Of a stretch of DNA of 50,309 nucleotides, positions 40,799 through 50,309 are shown piece by piece. Origin of the DNA: a virus; the IMG/VR virus record IMGVR_UViG_3300025133_000161, positions 1-50,309 of that record; one strand, 5' to 3'. The number at the start of each line of letters is the position of its first letter. Within the stretch, counting starts at the first letter, position 1. Under the pieces are notes generated by a model. It saw nothing but the letters and a program-made list of their open reading frames with translations, was not told the origin of the DNA and searched no databases. The position numbers and the translations under genes are program-made.

Positions 40799-42376
40799 GT
40801 GTCCAAAGAATATGCTTCTAGCGAAGCGCTTCAAAAAAAGATATCAGCCGGAGTTAATAAACTGGCCGATAATGTTGCTGCCACCCTGGGCCCAAAGGGC
40901 CGGAATGTCATCTTATCCAGGTCGGGATCCCGCCCCATAGTAACTAAGGATGGCGTTTCGGTGGCTAAATTTACTGATTTTGCTGATCCCTTTGAGAATG
41001 CCGCGGCACAGCTACTGAAGCAGGCGGCTTCTGAGACTAACAGTGTTGCTGGGGATGGTACTACGACGTCTACTGTCATAGCTCGCGATTTATATACGAG
41101 AAGTCAAAAATATTTAGTGGCCGGTAGCTCCCCGATCGAACTGAAGAGAGGCATGGATAAGGCTGCAGAGAAAGTGGTTGAAAAAATAAAATCAATGTCT
41201 CGCGATGTCGCCTCAAAGGAAGATATTGAACATATTGCTACGATATCAGCTAACGGCGATAAGGCAATCGGTGCCCTGATAGCGACCGCAGCCGATCAGG
41301 CCGGCCATGACGGCGCCATCACAGTTGAGGAGGGCAGGGCCTTCGAAACCAGCTTGGATGTTATTGAGGGCTTCAGGCTTAATTCGGGATATTTTGCGCA
41401 AGCCTTCGTTACAAACGAGAGGAGAAACGCGGTTGAGTATGGTGAGAGTCTTATCCTTGTGACTGATTACAAAATTGATGCAGTCCAGGATATCCTCCCC
41501 ACCTTGGAATTGGCGGCTAGAGAAAACAAACCTTTTGTGATTGTTGCGGAGCACGTAGAGGGTCAAGCTCTTGCTGCTCTGATAATGAACACAGTTAGAG
41601 GATCTATGAAGGTGGTGGCTGTAAAGGCGCCAGGGTATGGACAAGAACGGCGCAGTGTAATGGAAGACTTGTGTCTCTCAGTGGGCGCCACCTTCGTGAG
41701 CAGGTCTTCTGGCAAATCTCTATCAGACGTGGCTTTGACTGACTTAGGCTCGTGCAAAAAGGTCGAAGTACTAAAGAACCATACTACATTTGTTGGCGGC
41801 TTGGCGGACTGGGATAAGATTGACTTAAGAATCGAAACAATCAAATCTGAGATAAAGCAGACAGAAGATATGGAGGAGTGCCGGAAACTGCAAGAAAGAA
41901 TTGTACGCCTCTCTAGTGGCGTTGCCATAATAAAGGTAGGCGGAGTAACTGAGGTGGAGATGATAGAAAAAAAACATCGCATTGAAGATGCGCTTGAGGC
42001 AGTAAAGTCTGCCCAGTCCGAGGGTATCGTGCCCGGCGGTGGTCGCACGCTGCTAGCATGCAGTAACTTTGAAATAGAACCTGAGAACGAAGATCAGGAG
42101 ATAGGCTCAAATATTGTCAGGGCAGCGCTCCGCGCCCCGATTCGCCAGATGGCAGTTAACGCCGGCGTAAGCGCTGATTTGATAGTCGACAAAATTATGT
42201 CGGCTGAAGAGAATCTAGGGTGGGATTTCAAAAACAACGAGATGGTGGATATGATGGAAGCCGGTATTGTCGACCCCGCTAAGGTTACGCGCGCCGCCCT
42301 GCAAAACGCAGTCTCCGTTGCATCGATGCTAATAACGACCGAAAGCGCGATCGTAGAGGTTAAGCATGAAAGTTAA
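40799..42376 (+). CDS. groEL: GroEL chaperonin
   Basis: 525 residues from a GTG start with AAAGAGG upstream; E. coli GroEL is 548. Equatorial ATP site: LGPKGRNVIL and VAGDGTTTSTV with Asp86. C-terminal half: VGGVTEVEMIEKKHRIEDAL carries the catalytic Asp, then EGIVPGGGRTLL. The Gly-Gly-Met C-terminal tail found in GroEL of many bacteria is absent; the protein ends VEVKHES. The apical domain is present (ENKPFVIVAEHVEGQALAAL). It folds phage or host proteins, likely the capsid or sheath. A co-chaperonin-like gene is encoded at 28630. Confidence 0.95.
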   Translation: MSKEYASSEALQKKISAGVNKLADNVAATLGPKGRNVILSRSGSRPIVTKDGVSVAKFTDFADPFENAAAQLLKQAASETNSVAGDGTTTSTVIARDLYTRSQKYLVAGSSPIELKRGMDKAAEKVVEKIKSMSRDVASKEDIEHIATISANGDKAIGALIATAADQAGHDGAITVEEGRAFETSLDVIEGFRLNSGYFAQAFVTNERRNAVEYGESLILVTDYKIDAVQDILPTLELAARENKPFVIVAEHVEGQALAALIMNTVRGSMKVVAVKAPGYGQERRSVMEDLCLSVGATFVSRSSGKSLSDVALTDLGSCKKVEVLKNHTTFVGGLADWDKIDLRIETIKSEIKQTEDMEECRKLQERIVRLSSGVAIIKVGGVTEVEMIEKKHRIEDALEAVKSAQSEGIVPGGGRTLLACSNFEIEPENEDQEIGSNIVRAALRAPIRQMAVNAGVSADLIVDKIMSAEENLGWDFKNNEMVDMMEAGIVDPAKVTRAALQNAVSVASMLITTESAIVEVKHES

Positions 42377-44248: not shown

Positions 44249-44674
44249 ATGACTACACTTACTACCTATAGACCGAGCCTTTTAGGGCGGAATGTATTTG
44301 AGGATTTATTTGACGCCATGGACTTTCCTGCGTTACTAAATAGGACCACGCAGGGCTATCCTGTTGCGGATATCTACAAGGGCGATGATGGATCGACTAT
44401 TATGGAATTTGCCCTGGCGGGTTTTCGAAAAGAAAACCTGCACGTTGAGATTCTTCCTGAGAAGAGGGAGGTCCATGTCAGCGCGGACTCTCATGGGGAC
44501 GAAGAAAACGCGACTTCCCGAAGGATCGCGCGCCGCGCGTTTCATAAAACTTTTGTGAATTACGATAGCGATTTAGACTTGGCCAGCGCTAAGGCTAGCT
44601 ACGACAACGGATTGTTGCGTATTAACTTACCGGCCAAGCCTGAATCGCAGCCTTTGCGTGTCGAAATTAAATAA
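44249..44674 (+). CDS. Small heat-shock protein Hsp20 (alpha-crystallin type)
   Basis: 141 residues. Alpha-crystallin core: YPVADIYKGDDGSTIMEFAL, AGFRKENLHVEILPEKREVH and the C-terminal A-x-x-x-NGLLRINLPAK motif with the ...V/I-x-I-like end RVEIK. Such proteins are frequent in marine T4-like phages and prevent aggregation of virion or photosystem proteins. AAGGAG precedes the ATG. A 90-nt gap upstream probably holds its promoter but no clear one is seen. Confidence 0.9.
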   Translation: MTTLTTYRPSLLGRNVFEDLFDAMDFPALLNRTTQGYPVADIYKGDDGSTIMEFALAGFRKENLHVEILPEKREVHVSADSHGDEENATSRRIARRAFHKTFVNYDSDLDLASAKASYDNGLLRINLPAKPESQPLRVEIK

Positions 44675-44694: not shown

Positions 44695-44744
44695 GCCCCC
44701 CTGTAGCTATAATTACTTATAACAGCTAATGTTTACAGGGGGGC
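44695..44744 (+). promoter_or_regulatory. Long hairpin covering the deformylase RBS, with TATAAT inside
   Basis: GCCCCCCTGTA (44695-44705) is the exact reverse complement of TACAGGGGGGC (44734-44744): an 11-bp stem with a 28-nt loop. The 3' arm contains the GGGGGG that would be the ribosome-binding site of the deformylase gene. The loop holds TATAAT (44708-44713), with TTGAGT 15 nt upstream (44687-44692). RNA started inside the loop would lack the 5' arm and leave the RBS free, as known for T4 gene e. Confidence 0.6.
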
Positions 44745-44752
44745 TAATAAAG

Positions 44753-45205
44753 TTGCCATACACGTATGTATCAGATAAAGACAAGCTCTCAAAACCGTGC
44801 ACGCCCTGCGATTTTAAAATGGATGGTATACGAATAGGGAATAAACTTCTTGAGACCTTGGCACGAGAATCCGACGCCATCGGATTGGCCGCTAATCAGG
44901 TAGGGATCGATGCATCAGTTTGTGTTGTGAAAGTTGTGAAACCCTTCATCCTCATAAACCCAAAGATAGTTGGAAAATTTGGCAAAAGTTTCTTTCAAGA
45001 AGGTTGTCTTTCGTTCAAGGGTGACTATGTTTTAACTGAAAGATGGACAGATATCGTAGTTGCGGACGATAACCACCCTAATCAGTTGTTCTTCTCTTTC
45101 GAGAAGAATGCGTTGGAGTGTGTATGCGTTCAACACGAAATCGATCATTTAAATGGAATCACGATGTTTGATCGTGCTGTAGACAAGGAGTTATTTAATG
45201 TCTAG
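44753..45205 (+). CDS. def: Peptide deformylase
   Basis: 150 residues from TTG 44753, 9 nt after the GGGGGG run; an ATG at 44729 would add 8 residues but has no ribosome-binding site and lies in a hairpin loop. Deformylase motifs: IGLAANQVG (motif I), FFQEGCLSF (motif II with Cys) and QHEIDHLNG (motif III with two His). Removes formyl groups from new proteins; short phage PDFs are known in marine phages. It overlaps the next small gene by 8 nt. The length is a little shorter than bacterial PDF (about 168). Confidence 0.9.
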   Translation: MPYTYVSDKDKLSKPCTPCDFKMDGIRIGNKLLETLARESDAIGLAANQVGIDASVCVVKVVKPFILINPKIVGKFGKSFFQEGCLSFKGDYVLTERWTDIVVADDNHPNQLFFSFEKNALECVCVQHEIDHLNGITMFDRAVDKELFNV

Positions 45206-45723: not shown

Positions 45724-45797
45724 ATTAGAGTAATTTTATTTTATCTTTTTAAGATGGTGAATATATTTATAGTTCATAATTTAAAAGGAGTATGATT

Positions 45798-46013
45798 ATG
45801 AAGATTTTGTTTGCAATGATTTTGCTAATGATTGTGGCCATTTATGGTTGCGCTACGGATGATTCGCCTGTTCTGGAACAGAACACCAGCGATGTTGTGG
45901 AGATCGGAGATATCACAGTTGAGGATGTCGAAGAACTTATGGCTTCTGATGCAGAAGTTTCTCTTGACGATGCTGACACTGTTCCTACAGTAGAGGAAGA
46001 CGTAGAAAACTAA
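45798..46013 (+). CDS. Small lipoprotein-like acidic protein
   Basis: 71 residues from ATG 45798, with AAAAGGAG 7 nt upstream; the ATG at 45792 is too close. The N-terminus MKILFAMILLMIVAIYGC is a signal peptide ending in a lipobox-like Cys, followed by an acidic tail (EDVEELMASDAEVSLDDADT). It may be attached to the membrane as a lipoprotein; whether it is a lysis (spanin-like) or surface-exclusion protein is not clear. A terminator follows at once. Confidence 0.55.
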   Translation: MKILFAMILLMIVAIYGCATDDSPVLEQNTSDVVEIGDITVEDVEELMASDAEVSLDDADTVPTVEEDVEN

Positions 46014-46027
46014 AACTTAAGTTTTGT

Positions 46028-46048
46028 GCGCCATTTCGGCGCTTTTTT
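46028..46048 (+). terminator. Rho-independent terminator
   Basis: GCGCC/GGCGC stem (46028-46032 with 46038-46042), loop ATTTC, six T. It directly precedes the tRNA-Leu gene. Confidence 0.8.
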
Positions 46049-46136
46049 GGCCCTGTGGTGGAATTGGCATACACATCAGACTTAAAATCTGACGCCTGAA
46101 CTGGGCTTGCGGGTTCGAGTCCCGCTGGGGCCACCA
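46049..46136 (+). tRNA. tRNA-Leu (anticodon TAA)
   Basis: 88 nt including encoded CCA. Acceptor GGCCCTG pairs with TGGGGCC, with G-T pairs near the inner end. Anticodon stem TCAGA/TCTGA closes CTTAAAA (anticodon TAA, reading UUA). It has a long class II variable arm and the T arm GCGGG-TTCGAGT-CCCGC. It suits an AT-rich phage using TTA codons. Confidence 0.9.
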
Positions 46137-46160
46137 GAATACTATATAAGGAGTAGAATT

Positions 46161-46259
46161 GTGAGTAATATGCATCATTTAGAGAGCGACAAGCTCTTTA
46201 CAAGGATTATGATTGGTTTGACCATCGGTACTATAATTTTTGTAGTATTTGGGCTATAA
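46161..46259 (+). CDS. 32-aa single-helix membrane peptide
   Basis: GTG start with AAGGAG (46148-46153). It reads MSNMHHLESDKLFTRIMIGL then TIGTIIFVVFGL: a short polar head and one membrane helix. It sits between tRNA-Leu and the split tRNA. The function is unknown; its RBS and hydrophobic helix make it more than chance. Confidence 0.5.
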   Translation: MSNMHHLESDKLFTRIMIGLTIGTIIFVVFGL

Positions 46260-46263
46260 TCTT

Positions 46264-46290
46264 ACGCACCCGTAGCTCAGCTATAGTGCC
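46264..46290 (+). pseudogene. 5' part of a third tRNA, cut by HNH genes
   Basis: ACGCACCCGTAGCTCAG reads like the acceptor strand plus 'TAGCTCAG' D-arm start of a tRNA. It pairs with CGGGCGT at the 3' part (47440-47446) as ACGC..CCG with two extra bases. The D arm is degenerate. The - strand HNH gene ends inside it (stop at 46277-46279). The complete tRNA is not continuous in the window. Confidence 0.5.
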
Positions 46291-46618
46291 GTATGCGATG
46301 ACAGTTTGCACATAATAGAGCGCATTTATCAAGCTCTTTGTAAAGCTTGTCATCGCCTACAAGTCGCATCTTGTTCCAACTGAACTCTTTTTGAGTTGGG
46401 TCTAGGTGGTGAAATTCGAACACAGGCATAGGGTATGTTGAATTACAATCTTCACACTTACCACCTTTGTACTCGACAGCGATCTTTTTACGCTGCACCC
46501 AGCGTTTTTGACAATAACTATTATGACAACTTTTGCATTTAGATTGAAGTCTTGTGGCAGTTTTACGATAGAACTGAGACTCGTCTAGGCTTTTTTTACA
46601 ATCTGAACAAGTTTTCAT
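46277..46618 (-). CDS. HNH homing endonuclease (only minus-strand gene)
   Basis: 113 residues on the - strand, the only clear - strand protein gene here. Four CxxC pairs (CSDC, CKSC, CEDC, CANC) frame zinc sites. The HNH core is FEFHHLDP and CALLCANCHRIRH. Such small free-standing HNH enzymes cut unoccupied sites and move by repair copying. The 3' end of the gene runs into the 5' tRNA fragment. It is divergent from the + strand HNH gene at 46790, with tRNA-Arg between. Confidence 0.85.
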   Translation of the reverse strand: MKTCSDCKKSLDESQFYRKTATRLQSKCKSCHNSYCQKRWVQRKKIAVEYKGGKCEDCNSTYPMPVFEFHHLDPTQKEFSWNKMRLVGDDKLYKELDKCALLCANCHRIRHYS

Positions 46619-46653
46619 TTATTTTTCCTTTTGGGTGATTATAATAAACATAT

Positions 46654-46728
46654 GGGTCCATGGTGAAAGGGATATCACAGTAGACTTCTAATCTTCTATT
46701 CTAGGTTCGAGTCCTGGTGGACCTGCCA
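46654..46728 (+). tRNA. tRNA-Arg (anticodon TCT)
   Basis: 75 nt with encoded CCA. Acceptor GGGTCCA pairs with TGGACCT (G-T at the end), D stem GTGA/TCAC, anticodon stem GTAGA/TCTTC with one T-T mismatch around CTTCTAA (anticodon TCT, reading AGA), T arm CTAGG-TTCGAGT-CCTGG. It lies between the divergent HNH genes. Confidence 0.85.
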
Positions 46729-46735
46729 TATATTA

Positions 46736-46743
46736 TAAATAGT
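46736..46743 (-). promoter_or_regulatory. Reverse copy of ACTATTTA
   Basis: TAAATAGT on the + strand is the only minus-orientation copy of the motif seen. It faces tRNA-Arg and the minus-strand HNH gene, which fits a promoter for the one gene on that strand. Confidence 0.35.
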
Positions 46744-46744
46744 T

Positions 46745-46767
46745 GGATAGTATAAAAAATACTATCC
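46745..46767 (+). promoter_or_regulatory. 9-bp inverted repeat before + HNH gene
   Basis: GGATAGTAT (46745-46753) is the exact reverse complement of ATACTATCC (46759-46767) with an AAAAA loop. It could be a binding site, a hairpin in the leader of the endonuclease, or a processing signal. Confidence 0.5.
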
Positions 46768-46789
46768 ACAGCAGTATTAGGAAAACAAA

Positions 46790-47413
46790 GTGGGTCAAAG
46801 TAAAAACAATTACCAGCACAACGACGACGGAACAACGCACATCTTTTTAGAGACTAAGAATAAGCGCTTCCCGGGTAAGCACACAATTATTATAGACACA
46901 GAGGACTGGGAGGAGGTTAAGGAGTATAGCTGGCGCATTCACGGAAACAAGGCGACTAGTTATCCCTATGCTCAGACTAGCATCCCCAATCTAGAGGGAG
47001 GATGGACATATATCAACGCCACTACAAAAAATGGCTCTAAGAGAAGAGAGAAGAGAAAGCGAGTAACAACACTTCCACTACATCATATTATAATCGGAAA
47101 GCCACCCAAAGGAAAGATGGTTGATCATATAGATCGGAACGGCTTGAATAATAGAAGAGAGAATTTAAGGCTAACAACTAACAGTCAGAACCAACGAAAT
47201 TCCAAAGGATCCTCAAAGTCCTCGCAGTACAAGGGGGTTTATCGGGATATATCAAATAATAAATGGGCAGCCAATATTGGACATGAAGGAAAGGTGATCT
47301 ACATCGGCTCTTTCACCTGTGAGAAAGAAGCTGCTCTAGCTTATAATAAAAAAGCTTTAGAATTATGGGGAGATGAACACGCTTTCATGAACAAAGTAGA
47401 ACAAGACGGTTAG
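46790..47413 (+). CDS. HNH endonuclease with AP2-like DNA-binding domain
   Basis: 207 residues, GTG start after AGGAAAAC. The first part is an unusual domain (RFPGKHTIIIDTEDWEEVKE and a WRIHGNK strand). The HNH region is LHHIIIGKPPKGKMVDHIDR with NGLNNRRENLRLTTNSQNQ. The C-terminal part SQYKGVYRDISNNKWAANIG followed by GKVIYIGSFTCEKEAALAYN is an AP2-type DNA-binding domain. HNH-AP2 proteins are homing endonucleases. Its stop TAG lies inside the 3' tRNA fragment. Confidence 0.85.
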   Translation: MGQSKNNYQHNDDGTTHIFLETKNKRFPGKHTIIIDTEDWEEVKEYSWRIHGNKATSYPYAQTSIPNLEGGWTYINATTKNGSKRREKRKRVTTLPLHHIIIGKPPKGKMVDHIDRNGLNNRRENLRLTTNSQNQRNSKGSSKSSQYKGVYRDISNNKWAANIGHEGKVIYIGSFTCEKEAALAYNKKALELWGDEHAFMNKVEQDG

Positions 47414-47450
47414 CCGTAGGTCACAGGTTCGAATCCTGTCGGGCGTACCA
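47403..47450 (+). pseudogene. 3' part of the third tRNA (T arm, acceptor, CCA)
   Basis: ACAGG-TTCGAAT-CCTGT (47423-47439) is a perfect T arm, followed by acceptor strand CGGGCGT, discriminator A and CCA. AGGTC before it is a usual variable loop, preceded by GCCGT as the anticodon-stem 3' strand. Without its 5' half it is not a functional gene by itself. It pairs with the fragment at 46264 and overlaps the end of the HNH gene. Confidence 0.7.
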
Positions 47451-47460
47451 CGCATTTCCT

Positions 47461-47468
47461 ACTATTTA
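47461..47468 (+). promoter_or_regulatory. ACTATTTA motif (candidate late promoter)
   Basis: The motif lies just after the tRNA remnant and 6 nt before GTG 47475. With no ribosome-binding site visible, transcription from it would give a near-leaderless mRNA. Confidence 0.45.
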
Positions 47469-47474
47469 CTATGA

Positions 47475-47681
47475 GTGAAAGTAGGAGACCTAGTTAAGCT
47501 GAATATTCATTCGCATTTTACCAGTGGTATAAATGATATCATTGGTATACCTTTCGAGACATTTGGTGTCGTACTGCAGAAAAGGGGTGATGTATATAGT
47601 GTTATGTTCCCTACAGCTAGAGGTAATCAAATTCGAAGTTTTATGATTCAGGATTTAGAAATTGTGAGCGAGAGTGAATGA
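47475..47681 (+). CDS. Small SH3-like protein
   Basis: 68 residues, GTG start. It reads VGDLVKLNIHSHFTSG, then IGIPFETFGVVLQKRGDVYS and RSFMIQDLEIVSESE; the strand and turn pattern fits a KOW/SH3-like barrel. No ribosome-binding site precedes it, but an ACTATTTA motif is 6 nt upstream. It overlaps the next peptide gene by ATGA. Similar to the small proteins at 42670 and 48387. Confidence 0.55.
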   Translation: MKVGDLVKLNIHSHFTSGINDIIGIPFETFGVVLQKRGDVYSVMFPTARGNQIRSFMIQDLEIVSESE

Positions 47682-47767
47682 AAGATTTTAAACCAGCACT
47701 GAAGTTTTTTGCGCTTGACATGCTGCTAATTGTTGCTATGGTTTTGTTATACCATATGTGTTATTAA
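47678..47767 (+). CDS. 29-aa membrane micropeptide
   Basis: ATGA overlap with the previous stop. It reads MKDFKPALKFFALDMLLIVA then MVLLYHMCY: one membrane helix with a basic N-terminus. Too short for a firm call; coupling to the upstream gene supports it. Confidence 0.45.
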   Translation: MKDFKPALKFFALDMLLIVAMVLLYHMCY

Positions 47768-47768
47768 T

Positions 47769-47999
47769 ATGAAAGGCAATAAACTAATATATTCCAACTA
47801 TAAGAAGGATCGAATTAAAGGCTACAAAAAGCTCTTTAAGGAGCAGGAGAAATATTACGAGCCGCCCAAAAAAATAGCTCAGGGCATTGTTGAGGCGATG
47901 ACCGCGCAAGGCTATGAGATCAAATTGGATGAGGCCATCGCGTATATGAACTCCTCTTACGCTGTGTTCGATCGCAGTTACTATGAGAGTTCTCGTTAG
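47769..47999 (+). CDS. Hypothetical protein
   Basis: 76 residues from ATG 47769 (an in-frame ATG at 47730 lies inside the micropeptide). Basic first half (NYKKDRIKGYKKLFKEQEKY) and a helical second half (AMTAQGYEIKLDEAIAYMNS). No clear ribosome-binding site. Unknown function. Confidence 0.5.
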   Translation: MKGNKLIYSNYKKDRIKGYKKLFKEQEKYYEPPKKIAQGIVEAMTAQGYEIKLDEAIAYMNSSYAVFDRSYYESSR

Positions 48000-48015
48000 T
48001 TTACCTTACTTTAGC

Positions 48016-48023
48016 ACTATTTA
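48016..48023 (+). promoter_or_regulatory. ACTATTTA motif (candidate late promoter)
   Basis: The motif lies 57 nt before ATG 48081, with AAAGAGG in between. The same motif-RBS-gene layout occurs at 2376. Confidence 0.45.
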
Positions 48024-48080
48024 TTATTGATGTATTTACCATTAACAGGTTACACGAAAAATAATAAAAGAGGTGCTAAG

Positions 48081-48383
48081 ATGAAAGTTGGATCGGTTGC
48101 TTCACAAATTGTGACACCGTCCCGTCCAGGACAGGGTGTACAAACACAAAACCAAGAAGTAAATAATCAACAAAACAACAGACAGCCTGCCCAGCAAGAA
48201 CAAGAGTCTGTTACGAGCGAGAAGTATAACTGCCACAACTCCAAGTCTGGTATGAGCACAGAGGATTTTTTGCAGCTGCATAATTCCAGTGCCGAGGACA
48301 TGCTCGACGCTGTTAAAGACGTCATGGCCCTCAAGGTTATGGAGAAGACTTTGGAAGTTATTGATAAGATAGTTTCGGATTGA
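48081..48383 (+). CDS. Hypothetical protein, Gln/Asn-rich middle
   Basis: 100 residues from ATG 48081, chosen for AAAGAGGTG 7 nt upstream; an in-frame ATG at 48027 lies upstream without an RBS. Residues 20-45 are Gln/Asn-rich (QTQNQEVNNQQNNRQPAQQE) and probably disordered; the rest is helical (EDFLQLHNSSAEDMLDAVKD). Unknown function. Confidence 0.5.
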   Translation: MKVGSVASQIVTPSRPGQGVQTQNQEVNNQQNNRQPAQQEQESVTSEKYNCHNSKSGMSTEDFLQLHNSSAEDMLDAVKDVMALKVMEKTLEVIDKIVSD

Positions 48384-48386
48384 CTG

Positions 48387-48566
48387 ATGGAGATAGGCGA
48401 CCTAGTGACAGACAAAACGATGCCCGGGTCACGAGGCATTATTGTCGAGATTAAGTCGACAAGAAATGCGAAGTCTAAAACCACATATATAACTTATCTT
48501 GTTCATTGGTTTGATACTGAATTCAAATCGACGCATGGGCCAAATCAATTAGCGTTAATTAGTTGA
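48387..48566 (+). CDS. Small SH3-like protein
   Basis: 59 residues: MEIGDLVTDKTMPGSRGIIV then a strand-rich body (TYITYLVHWFDTEFKSTHG) ending NQLALIS. The start IGDLV and short strands resemble a small SH3-like barrel as at 47475. The ATG follows the previous stop after 3 nt without an obvious ribosome-binding site. Unknown function. Confidence 0.5.
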   Translation: MEIGDLVTDKTMPGSRGIIVEIKSTRNAKSKTTYITYLVHWFDTEFKSTHGPNQLALIS

Positions 48567-48585
48567 TTCATTATCAATAAAAATA

Positions 48586-48593
48586 ACTATTTA
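48586..48593 (+). promoter_or_regulatory. ACTATTTA motif (candidate late promoter)
   Basis: The motif lies 5 nt before ATG 48599, with no ribosome-binding site. It is the closest motif-to-start spacing in the window. Confidence 0.45.
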
Positions 48594-48598
48594 ATATT

Positions 48599-50309
48599 AT
48601 GAAGATGCAAAAGCTTTTCGAGAGTTGGAATAAGTTTAAATCTGATGTACTCATAGAAAATGTTCTTAATGAGGTTTCTTATGAGTTTTCTGAACACATT
48701 GAGGACTGGCTAGCCAACAATGGTGGCGAGCTTAATCTCCCGTTCAGTGATCTTTTTGACGGCAAAACACGCACGGTTGTTCCGCTAGGCCCAACCATGC
48801 AACCGGGCTCAAAAATATATCGACTAATTAGATGGCTAGAAGAACAGGGTTACGAAGTTGATTTTGGTTCTGGTCTTGTAACAAAAGAGTTCGAAAGTTA
48901 CACAGGGAATCCAAACGACCCTAACACTAAGAAGATAATGCGTAAGAAGCAGCAGAAGATTGGCAAAGTCTTGCAGCGCGCGGCAGCTTTGAACAAGAGG
49001 ATTGACGATAGTAGACAAGATGCCAACACGGCCCGTCAGAAGTTTTACGCCGATGCACCACCCTATACCGGAGGCGCGCGACCCAACGTATCAGAAGACG
49101 AGGCTTACAAGAAAGCTAATCTAGAAGTCGAGAAAGCACAGGCAGAATACAAGAAACACTTTAAGTATGAAGCTTATGGCACTACCTTGTACGAGTTTGT
49201 CGAGTTTTGGAATAAAGAGTCAAGGTATTTTCGTGAGAACCCAGAAGAGATGATGACAGACTACTCTGTTGTTATTTCCCGCCATCCAGTCGACGTATTA
49301 AGAATGTCTGACCATGGAAACATAAGCTCCTGCCATTCAGAAGGCAACTCACATTTTCACTGTGCAGTCAAAGAAGCTAAAGGTGCAGGCTCCGTTGCTT
49401 ACATAGTTGAGACTGCAGATTTGGACCAGATCGATTTGGAGGACGGTGAGATATTCGAGGATGACGATCGTGGAATCGACGGCATCGAGCCAGTCGGAAG
49501 AGTGAGACTCCGAAAGTTTGATAAGACCGGCACTTTTACATCTGATAACAAGTATTCTCTTCTCATGCCCGAAAAAAGAATCTATGGTCAAGACATGCCA
49601 GGATTCTATGAAGCTATTAGAGATTGGGCGTTAGAATCCCAAAAAGATAAGTGGTCTGAAGCGCTGAAAGAAGATGGTACTATGGATCCTGACTACCTCA
49701 GGGATTTTGTGCTCAAAGGCGCTCAATATCAGGACTCGAACGCGCGCTCTATTTTTAAGTCGGTCTTTAAAGACCATGGTGGCGAAGGCTTCGAACACGC
49801 TGAAGGAGGCGCCTGGCAAGACGATCAAGAAGAAGAAGAGCGCCTTGTCCGTGGCCTCGATGCTCTGATTGAAGAGATCGACGACCATGTTTATAATATG
49901 GAGCGTGAAGGGGAAAACCACGCTGGTTCGGTCGATGACGGCGGAGTGTATGTAAGGAGTTTTGACTGGCAAGTTGTAGACCCGCAAAGGATTGGATATG
50001 GTGACGAAGAGTGGAACCAAGAGAAAACTTACGAATGGGCAGAAATGGGTGGGCTACAAGATGCTCCCGACGATGGGCCTCAGGTTTATTCCTCGGCTGA
50101 GTGTGTGATTCGGATCATGCTCAATGGTGACAAAGCTGAGGATTTTCCAAGTGATCACAATGCAGGCGCTCTCGGCGGGCTTGAAAAGCTCACCAACACA
50201 ATGAGAGAAGTGGTGGATTTTGCAGCCGACAATAGTGGCTGGGGCCACTCTCTAAGTGACTACGACATTGAGGGCCCGGATTACGAGGACTACATAGAGT
50301 TTATTGCTA
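48599..50309 (+). CDS. Large protein with short N-terminal helix (3' end outside window)
   Basis: At least 570 residues; the frame is open to the right edge. It starts MKMQKLFESWNKFKSDVLIE, a short helix with the LFE and LIE spacing reminiscent of capsid-targeting signals. Near residues 225-260 it has VVISRHPVDVLRMSDHGN, then ISSCHSEGNSHFHCAVKEA, a Cys/His-rich patch. It ends as a very acidic body (DDQEEEERLVRG). Role unknown; position after an ACTATTTA motif suggests late expression. Confidence 0.6.
   Translation, partial: MKMQKLFESWNKFKSDVLIENVLNEVSYEFSEHIEDWLANNGGELNLPFSDLFDGKTRTVVPLGPTMQPGSKIYRLIRWLEEQGYEVDFGSGLVTKEFESYTGNPNDPNTKKIMRKKQQKIGKVLQRAAALNKRIDDSRQDANTARQKFYADAPPYTGGARPNVSEDEAYKKANLEVEKAQAEYKKHFKYEAYGTTLYEFVEFWNKESRYFRENPEEMMTDYSVVISRHPVDVLRMSDHGNISSCHSEGNSHFHCAVKEAKGAGSVAYIVETADLDQIDLEDGEIFEDDDRGIDGIEPVGRVRLRKFDKTGTFTSDNKYSLLMPEKRIYGQDMPGFYEAIRDWALESQKDKWSEALKEDGTMDPDYLRDFVLKGAQYQDSNARSIFKSVFKDHGGEGFEHAEGGAWQDDQEEEERLVRGLDALIEEIDDHVYNMEREGENHAGSVDDGGVYVRSFDWQVVDPQRIGYGDEEWNQEKTYEWAEMGGLQDAPDDGPQVYSSAECVIRIMLNGDKAEDFPSDHNAGALGGLEKLTNTMREVVDFAADNSGWGHSLSDYDIEGPDYEDYIEFIA

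Follow-up and report, generated by a model that had tools for sequence, protein, structure and literature searches.

A tRNA-Arg(UCU) gene broken around an HNH endonuclease gene and a divergent tRNA-Arg(UCU): a probable natural cleave-and-rescue-like element of phages

Within the 50,309-base marine virus record analysed here in full (the window), a resident tRNA-Arg(UCU) gene was observed as two separated pieces, with an HNH endonuclease gene (HNH1) and a second, complete tRNA-Arg(UCU) of a divergent type lying between them. The inner tRNA has the same identity as the broken one, a point missed by the original prediction. We interpret HNH1 and its tRNA as an intronless homing endonuclease that targets tRNA-Arg(UCU) genes and carries a divergent replacement, that is, as a natural cleave-and-rescue-like element, and we place the probability of this reading at about 0.72. 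By comparison among related sequences, the broken and carried tRNAs match in identity, with one intact tRNA-Arg(UCU) per genome examined. The features of the locus are given below in order.

46049 to 46136, plus strand: tRNA-Leu(UAA), an intact neighbour in the tRNA locus (ARAGORN; Rfam 55.2 bits)
46266 to 46289, plus strand: 5' part of the resident tRNA-Arg(UCU), with acceptor strand GCACCCG at 46266-46272 and then TAGCTCAG at 46273-46280
46277 to 46618, minus strand: HNH1, an HNH endonuclease of 113 aa, with its stop codon inside the 5' tRNA piece
46640 to 46645, plus strand: TATAAT hexamer, 8 nt before the cassette tRNA
46654 to 46728, plus strand: carried tRNA-Arg(UCU), complete, of divergent type, the proposed replacement (ARAGORN; Rfam 53.3 bits)
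46741 to 46767, plus strand: AGTTGGATAG...CTATCC, D-loop-like, forming an inverted repeat, the 3' border of the module
46790 to 47413, plus strand: HNH2, 207 aa, an HNH_3 domain with an AP2-like domain, with its stop codon inside the 3' tRNA piece
47406 to 47450, plus strand: 3' part of the resident tRNA-Arg(UCU), an anticodon stem remnant with the loop deleted, then T arm and acceptor

The window contains phage-type genes, and its tRNA locus lies downstream of a peptide deformylase gene (44729-45205). Beside the deformylase are genes for a GroEL-type chaperonin (Pfam Cpn60_TCP1, 40799-42376) and a small heat shock protein (HSP20, 44249-44674). With the deformylase used as bait, 80 related loci were fetched; the closer of these mostly contained a tRNA cluster including an intact tRNA-Arg(UCU), and tRNA-Leu(UAA) was observed at the matching place in most relatives. 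The tRNAs called by both ARAGORN and Rfam in the window were the tRNA-Leu(UAA) and the tRNA-Arg(UCU) at 46654-46728. In the window's long genes, 48% of the Arg codons are AGA or AGG, which makes a tRNA-Arg(UCU) a plausible benefit to this virus. No second tRNA-Arg(UCU) was found in the sequence present in the window or in the records G001 and G003, which are partly fragments.

We assign 46266-46289 and 47406-47450, from their matches to relatives, to a single tRNA-Arg(UCU) of resident type, as its 5' and 3' parts respectively. On the 5' side, window positions 46258-46280 were identical to L004 8006-8028 at 23 of 23 bases, across the spacer and the start of the tRNA-Arg(UCU), and L017 aligned unbroken over 45746-46280, running into its own tRNA-Arg(UCU). 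These two matches across the junction ruled out a reading of the left piece as tRNA-Gly, the tRNA present there in L003 and L002. On the 3' side, 47412-47450 was identical at 39 of 39 bases to the end of the tRNA-Arg(UCU) in L082, and likewise in L083, while 47414-47450 was identical to L084 (37 of 37). L003 was syntenic over 47412-48790, with the alignment starting in its tRNA-Arg(UCU). Both flanks of the window locus are syntenic with relatives carrying an intact tRNA-Arg. The original prediction, that a cassette with a second tRNA inside it had split a tRNA, was borne out by these identities and by the flank synteny, and the uninterrupted tRNA that it had looked for in related genomes was present at this place as an intact tRNA-Arg(UCU). 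Its positions were also confirmed for both pieces, for both outward-reading HNH genes with their stops at 46277-46279 and 47411-47413, and for the complete tRNA-Arg.

The 3' part consists of a T arm at 47423-47439 and the acceptor strand CGGGCGT at 47440-47446, followed by ACCA. The acceptor strands GCACCCG and CGGGCGT form six of seven pairs with one A.C mismatch, and with the 5' piece starting at G46266 the two extra acceptor bases that had been proposed are not needed. The mismatch falls at A3.C70, and the window halves may thus derive from two resident alleles. Across nine split loci, with related loci counted separately, the acceptor strands paired at 60 of 63 positions (permutation p = 0.00025). 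Beyond 46280, ATAGTGC is probably the rest of the D arm with GG lost. The 3' piece probably starts at 47406, where ACGG-TTA-GCCGT corresponds to ACGGCCTTCTAAGCCGT of the relatives; the anticodon stem then retains its two strands, and the anticodon itself is deleted. The TAG within ACGG-TTA-GCCGT is the stop codon of HNH2.

We consider the split tRNA-Arg(UCU) gene of the window to be dead, judging from its sequence, because its anticodon is gone and no joined form scores as a tRNA. ARAGORN found no tRNA in any joining of the two pieces, and the 3' piece alone scored 16.7 bits against a gathering score of 29. The earlier suggestion of a dead gene is thereby supported, and the suggestion that the halves are joined or otherwise processed is not. 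In the class of split tRNAs the halves jointly hold a complete tRNA including the anticodon, which is absent from the window.

HNH1 matched the PHROG families 2255 (HNH endonuclease, E=9e-30) and 3106 (E=7e-24), while its match to Pfam HNH (PF01844, E=0.11) was below the cut-off; an alignment of its homologs contained invariant Cys pairs and HH/NCH motifs. It shares with free-standing homing endonucleases an HNH domain, a position outside any intron, and a presence/absence polymorphism with horizontal spread. No group I or II intron was detected in the window with Rfam. The carried tRNA was 85-95% identical to the cassette tRNAs of L085-L087 and 53-58% identical to the marine resident tRNA-Arg(UCU). 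Its nearest relatives were tRNA-Arg(UCU) genes of another virus group, in three members of which (L104, L108, L098) an HNH1 homolog lies tail to tail beside tRNA-Arg(UCU). Stretches identical to the cassette tRNA occur in other viruses (L093-L113), and a search for a bacterial source, using an exact 27-base pattern against bacterial genomes, returned no match. Among carried tRNAs, pairing was kept in 95% of cells and 17 of 21 pairs had changes on both sides, as expected for working tRNAs. The hexamer upstream of the carried tRNA is TATAAT also in L085 and L086 and TATAGT, with one base altered, in L087; it may be the cassette tRNA's own promoter. A consensus promoter scan listed no plus-strand promoter at this site.

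The element consists of HNH1 and its tRNA and extends from 46277 to about 46767. Sequence resembling AGTTGGATAG...CTATCC was observed behind the module in the window and in L085, L086 and L087, and is probably a decayed piece of the split tRNA, with a possible origin in the D loop. The spread of the hairpin GGATAG...CTATCC was read by eye from the fetched loci, and a scan for it as an independent element, run with a spacer one base too long, gave only a chance match. The module had nucleotide identities of 84% (L085), 80% (L086) and 78% (L087) to the window. In L085 and L087 it lies between the ends of a tRNA-Arg, flanked by GCGCCCGTAGCTCAG... and, at the opposite end, by ...CGAATCCTGTCGGG(T/C)G.... 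In L086 it directly follows an intact tRNA-Met with no tRNA halves, indicating that some copies did not land in tRNA-Arg or that the halves were lost. HNH1 of L085 shared 86% aa identity with that of the window, versus 60% for the neighbouring Hsp20 gene. In L087 the neighbours of the copy are a methyltransferase-like gene and further unrelated genes.

HNH2 does not belong to this module and is a separate, later insertion between the module and the T arm. It matched Pfam HNH_3 (E=9e-11) and PHROG 99 (E=2e-38), with an AP2 match below the cut-off (E=1.4e-6). At the setting used, neither a protein-pattern search of viral contigs nor tblastn against phages found relatives of HNH2. Of the cassette as originally predicted, the carried tRNA inside a split tRNA was retained, while the inclusion of both HNH genes was not, as only HNH1 is part of the repeated module.

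The closest homologs of HNH1 in named phages were in E. coli kuraviruses (58% identity), in which both empty and filled alleles of the site were observed. The site is empty in Bas90, phiEco32 and EP335, where the tRNA-Arg(UCU) is intact, and filled in Ptacy1479, Ptacy1532, Bas92 and TH38. Ptacy1532 contains GCGCTCTTAGCTCAATGGATAGAGCA, then the HNH gene on the minus strand and a different complete tRNA-Arg(UCU), then CTTCTAAGCTATTGGTTACAGGTTCGAGTCCTGTAGGGCGCACCA; it retains the first 26 and the last 44-45 nt of the Bas90 tRNA unchanged, with about 5 nt of the anticodon stem replaced. The other three filled loci are like Ptacy1532 with a changed 5' end. The cassettes, compared over their HNH parts, were 97-100% identical among the four kuraviruses, while the upstream 250 bp were 40-77% identical; the downstream flanks were mixed, with 43-45% identity against Ptacy1479 and 91-94% among the other three. 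Taken with the marine loci, these comparisons show insertion into and loss of tRNA-Arg(UCU), an empty site, and horizontal movement of the module. Resident and carried tRNAs of the kuraviruses were 68% identical. The kinship seen between the marine and kuravirus cassettes is that of the HNH protein rather than that of one common insertion.

Two further kuraviruses, YF01 and Bas93, have another HNH gene (149 aa) at the locus, placed after the tRNA 5' end and followed by a tRNA-Arg(UCU)-type gene, which is ordinary in YF01 and atypical in Bas93. In XT18 the tRNA-Arg(UCU) is of cassette type, and no HNH is present. Exactly one tRNA exceeded the Rfam cut-off in each of 10 kuravirus genomes, and ARAGORN identified it as Arg(UCU) in nine of them; Bas93, whose tRNA gene gave no ARAGORN call, has an anticodon loop CTTCTAA as read by eye. 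The authors describing YF01 reported one tRNA, Arg(UCU), and raised AGA use, and the accessible part of their paper does not mention a split tRNA (PMC9965538). Around 2400-2510 of the kuravirus loci L127 and L128, the carried tRNA lies between the arms of a 13-base inverted repeat (AAGTTTTCATTGT/ACAATGAAAACTT) that corresponds to the HNH gene start.

HNH1 homologs were gathered from viral contigs, genomes and phages, giving 81 full-length proteins, of which 35 were at least 44% identical. Among these 35, 23 had an ARAGORN tRNA-Arg (UCU or CCU) within 60 bases. Adding six with atypical tRNA-Arg genes and two with intron-like inserts in tRNA-Arg(UCU) increased the number to 31, with 29 abutting tRNA-Arg and two splitting it as an intron-like insert; none of the 35 had only another tRNA adjacent. 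The tRNA-Arg label was clustered on the homolog tree (13 changes vs 26 when shuffled). The set holds near relatives, including three kuraviruses and three felixounaviruses, so these counts are not independent events. The weight of the matching anticodon is also reduced by how common tRNA-Arg(UCU) is in these viruses: it accounted for 48 of 182 tRNAs in the mostly marine loci, where some genes were counted twice, and for 19 of 227 in the HNH-homolog loci.

An HNH gene with an intact tRNA-Arg(UCU) was observed between both halves of a split tRNA-Arg in L147 and L164, and with the 5' half alone in L117, L144, L148 and L151. The split and carried tRNAs are both Arg(UCU) in the window, the kuraviruses, L147 and L164, and the anticodon TTCTAA can still be made out in the halves from the kuraviruses, L147 and L164. 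The 5' breakpoints, as read by eye, lie near nt 24-33, and visual inspection was also used to place some junctions that had decayed. In L147 and L164 the cassette is bounded, immediately within the tRNA halves, by inverted repeats of about 20 and 12 bases, which could keep the pieces together in RNA or could be a trace of insertion.

A 34% homolog in a Vequintavirus-type genome (L139, 1466-1890) splits tRNA-Pro(UGG) between the D and anticodon arms, close to where the tRNA-Arg genes are broken, without a replacement tRNA; not every member of the wider family therefore brings a rescue. The tRNAs next to distant homologs include Asn, Pro, Gly, Tyr and others. Where the match covered only the C-terminal two thirds, homologs were often located in inserts, at least one of them a group I intron, in bacterial tRNA-Asn-like genes. 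L123 and about 30 bacterial loci (Patescibacteria, Omnitrophota and others) have split, mostly tRNA-Asn-like genes with a homolog of the HNH core in the insert; a group I intron was confirmed for L123 only (RF00028). In three Bacteroidota loci (L225, L226, L229) an antisense HNH1 homolog lies in an intron-like insert of approximately 600 bases in the anticodon loop of tRNA-Arg(UCU), with no group I match at the Rfam cut-off. Atypical tRNA-Arg(UCU)-like genes were also observed beside HNH1 homologs or HNH genes (FelixO1, PAK_P2, Bas93 and others), at the following positions.

L130, 1404 to 1482: atypical tRNA-Arg(UCU)-like gene
L133, 1409 to 1483: atypical tRNA-Arg(UCU)-like gene
L145, 1846 to 1927, minus strand: atypical tRNA-Arg(UCU)-like gene
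L160, 1400 to 1475: atypical tRNA-Arg(UCU)-like gene
L304, about 1760 to 1840: atypical tRNA-Arg(UCU)-like gene

These genes have no ordinary D arm between the acceptor and the anticodon arm. D-loop-like GTAATGGAGT occurs in a stretch of 19-26 nt between their anticodon arm and T arm, and their tRNA scores reach only 30-40 bits.

A proposed model for the element places its target in the tRNA-Arg(UCU) gene itself, near the boundary of the D arm and the anticodon arm. During a mixed infection the endonuclease would cut the tRNA-Arg(UCU) gene of a phage lacking the element, and repair from the element-bearing genome would copy the endonuclease together with the neighbouring tRNA into the break. 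The recipient's own tRNA would be left in two pieces and die, and the imported tRNA-Arg(UCU) would restore the decoding function. The carried tRNA is presumably left uncut because its body is so different from the target. In the window, a second HNH gene would later have entered between the module and the T arm. We infer cleavage, homing by repair, resistance of the carried tRNA and selection for rescue from the arrangement of genes across genomes. Homing with a divergent tRNA in the repair tract would account for a tRNA that is split, for identities that match, for a single copy left intact and for a module that is mobile. As in cleave-and-rescue, a gene is destroyed by the insertion, here tRNA-Arg(UCU), and its function is encoded again on the element. 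With the same arrangement in well-known E. coli phages, and the unbroken original in their close relatives, the module looks like a selfish gene that disrupts a useful gene and supplies its replacement. A broader version, which we put somewhat short of even odds, is that one HNH clade specialises on tRNA-Arg(UCU) genes, perhaps those of hosts too, and that the element is widespread and persists because recipients lose their own gene and come to depend on the resistant copy.

Other explanations were weighed against this one. The carried tRNA-Arg(UCU) may itself be the selected part, resisting a host tRNA nuclease, with the HNH gene only a vehicle and the breakage of the resident a by-product. 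Phage tRNAs are described as a means of evading tRNA-targeting defences in the accessible parts of two reports (PMC10264068, PMC11555353), amplification of an anti-defence tRNA by SegB is known (PMC13096335), and at one kuravirus site different types of tRNA have taken one another's place. However, the resident and carried anticodon loops are nearly alike (mostly CTTCTAA), so an anticodon nuclease would not distinguish them, and selection on the tRNA alone leaves the position of the HNH gene inside the same tRNA gene unexplained. We regard this account as rather unlikely as a substitute for homing with replacement, with which it is nonetheless compatible. Somewhat less likely still, in our judgement, is that ordinary HNH insertions in a tRNA-rich region combined with ordinary tRNA turnover, and that tRNA-Arg(UCU) came to lie beside HNH1 by chance. 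The varied tRNAs beside distant homologs are in line with this, as are HNH2 and the 149-aa kuravirus HNH, which are unrelated insertions at the same place. Chance is difficult to reconcile with an arrangement of HNH and tRNA-Arg(UCU) that persists at aa identities as low as 58% and in kuraviruses, where Arg(UCU) is the sole tRNA. It also fits poorly with a module that moves as a unit and with the 31 of 35 close homologs that adjoin or interrupt a tRNA-Arg, no homolog in this set having a different tRNA as its only neighbour.

A degenerate group I intron of tRNA-Arg(UCU) that has lost its catalytic core is suggested by the homologs in group I introns of tRNA genes (L123, RF00028) and by the antisense homologs in the anticodon-loop inserts of L225, L226 and L229. 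Yet the latter Bacteroidota inserts also lack an RF00028 match, no Rfam group I match was found in the window or in L085, L087, L127, L128, L131, L117, L144 and L147, the kuravirus insertion lies before the anticodon loop, and an intron origin brings no second complete tRNA. We consider this origin very unlikely. Function of the split tRNA, through joining of its pieces in cis or in trans, is given almost no weight: the acceptor strands still pair, the T arm is perfect, and L147 and L164 have inverted repeats inside the halves, but the anticodon is absent from the window, where no joined form scores, and joining of the kuravirus halves, whose anticodon stems are degraded, gave only a false tRNA-Lys reading.

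The homing-and-replacement element resembles several known systems in part. In engineered cleave-and-rescue drives, a nuclease destroys a needed gene and a linked recoded copy restores its function. These drives are synthetic and CRISPR-based, whereas the phage element is natural and its cleavage and dependence are presumptive. Group I intron HNH endonucleases of tRNA genes share a related endonuclease core and a tRNA gene target, but there the tRNA is spliced, whereas here no intron was found and the tRNA is lost. Among phage homing endonucleases, SegB cuts inside tRNA genes (PMC13096335); many phages have it in association with tRNAs, which it mobilises or amplifies (PMC2988022, PMC13096335). 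The SegB of T4 and T6 is likewise an intronless endonuclease gene at a tRNA locus; however, it is a GIY-YIG enzyme, whereas the present gene is an HNH gene inside the broken tRNA, linked to a divergent replacement of the same tRNA. The HEG islands of phages contain essential genes that are flanked by homing endonucleases and may be their cargo (PMC10448857); that cargo is a resident essential gene or operon, whereas here it is a replacement for the gene destroyed by the insertion. In fungal mitochondria, the mORFs of Allomyces atp6 and Glomus atp6/atp9/cox2/nad3 are endonuclease genes that invade a needed gene, displace its 3' end and bring a divergent replacement, with the displaced original persisting as a dead copy (PMC3630166). 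The likeness to the phage element lies in the invasion, the divergent replacement and the dead original, but mORFs supply only the C-terminal part of a protein gene, in frame and in organelles, while the gene supplied by the phage element encodes an RNA and is both complete and separate. An endonuclease inside a broken tRNA with a linked replacement of the same tRNA was not described in the open literature searched.

Drives that combine an endonuclease with a rescue are human-designed, and the nearest natural parallel found, in fungal mitochondria, exchanges just the ends of genes. In the phage element, less than 0.6 kb holds the endonuclease, the broken target and a divergent substitute, and the combination recurs in marine, Bacteroidota-type and E. 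coli phages. Empty and filled alleles exist in phages of one laboratory collection, making the question directly testable. If the proposed reading holds, such elements would offer an explanation for part of the puzzling turnover of tRNA genes in phages.
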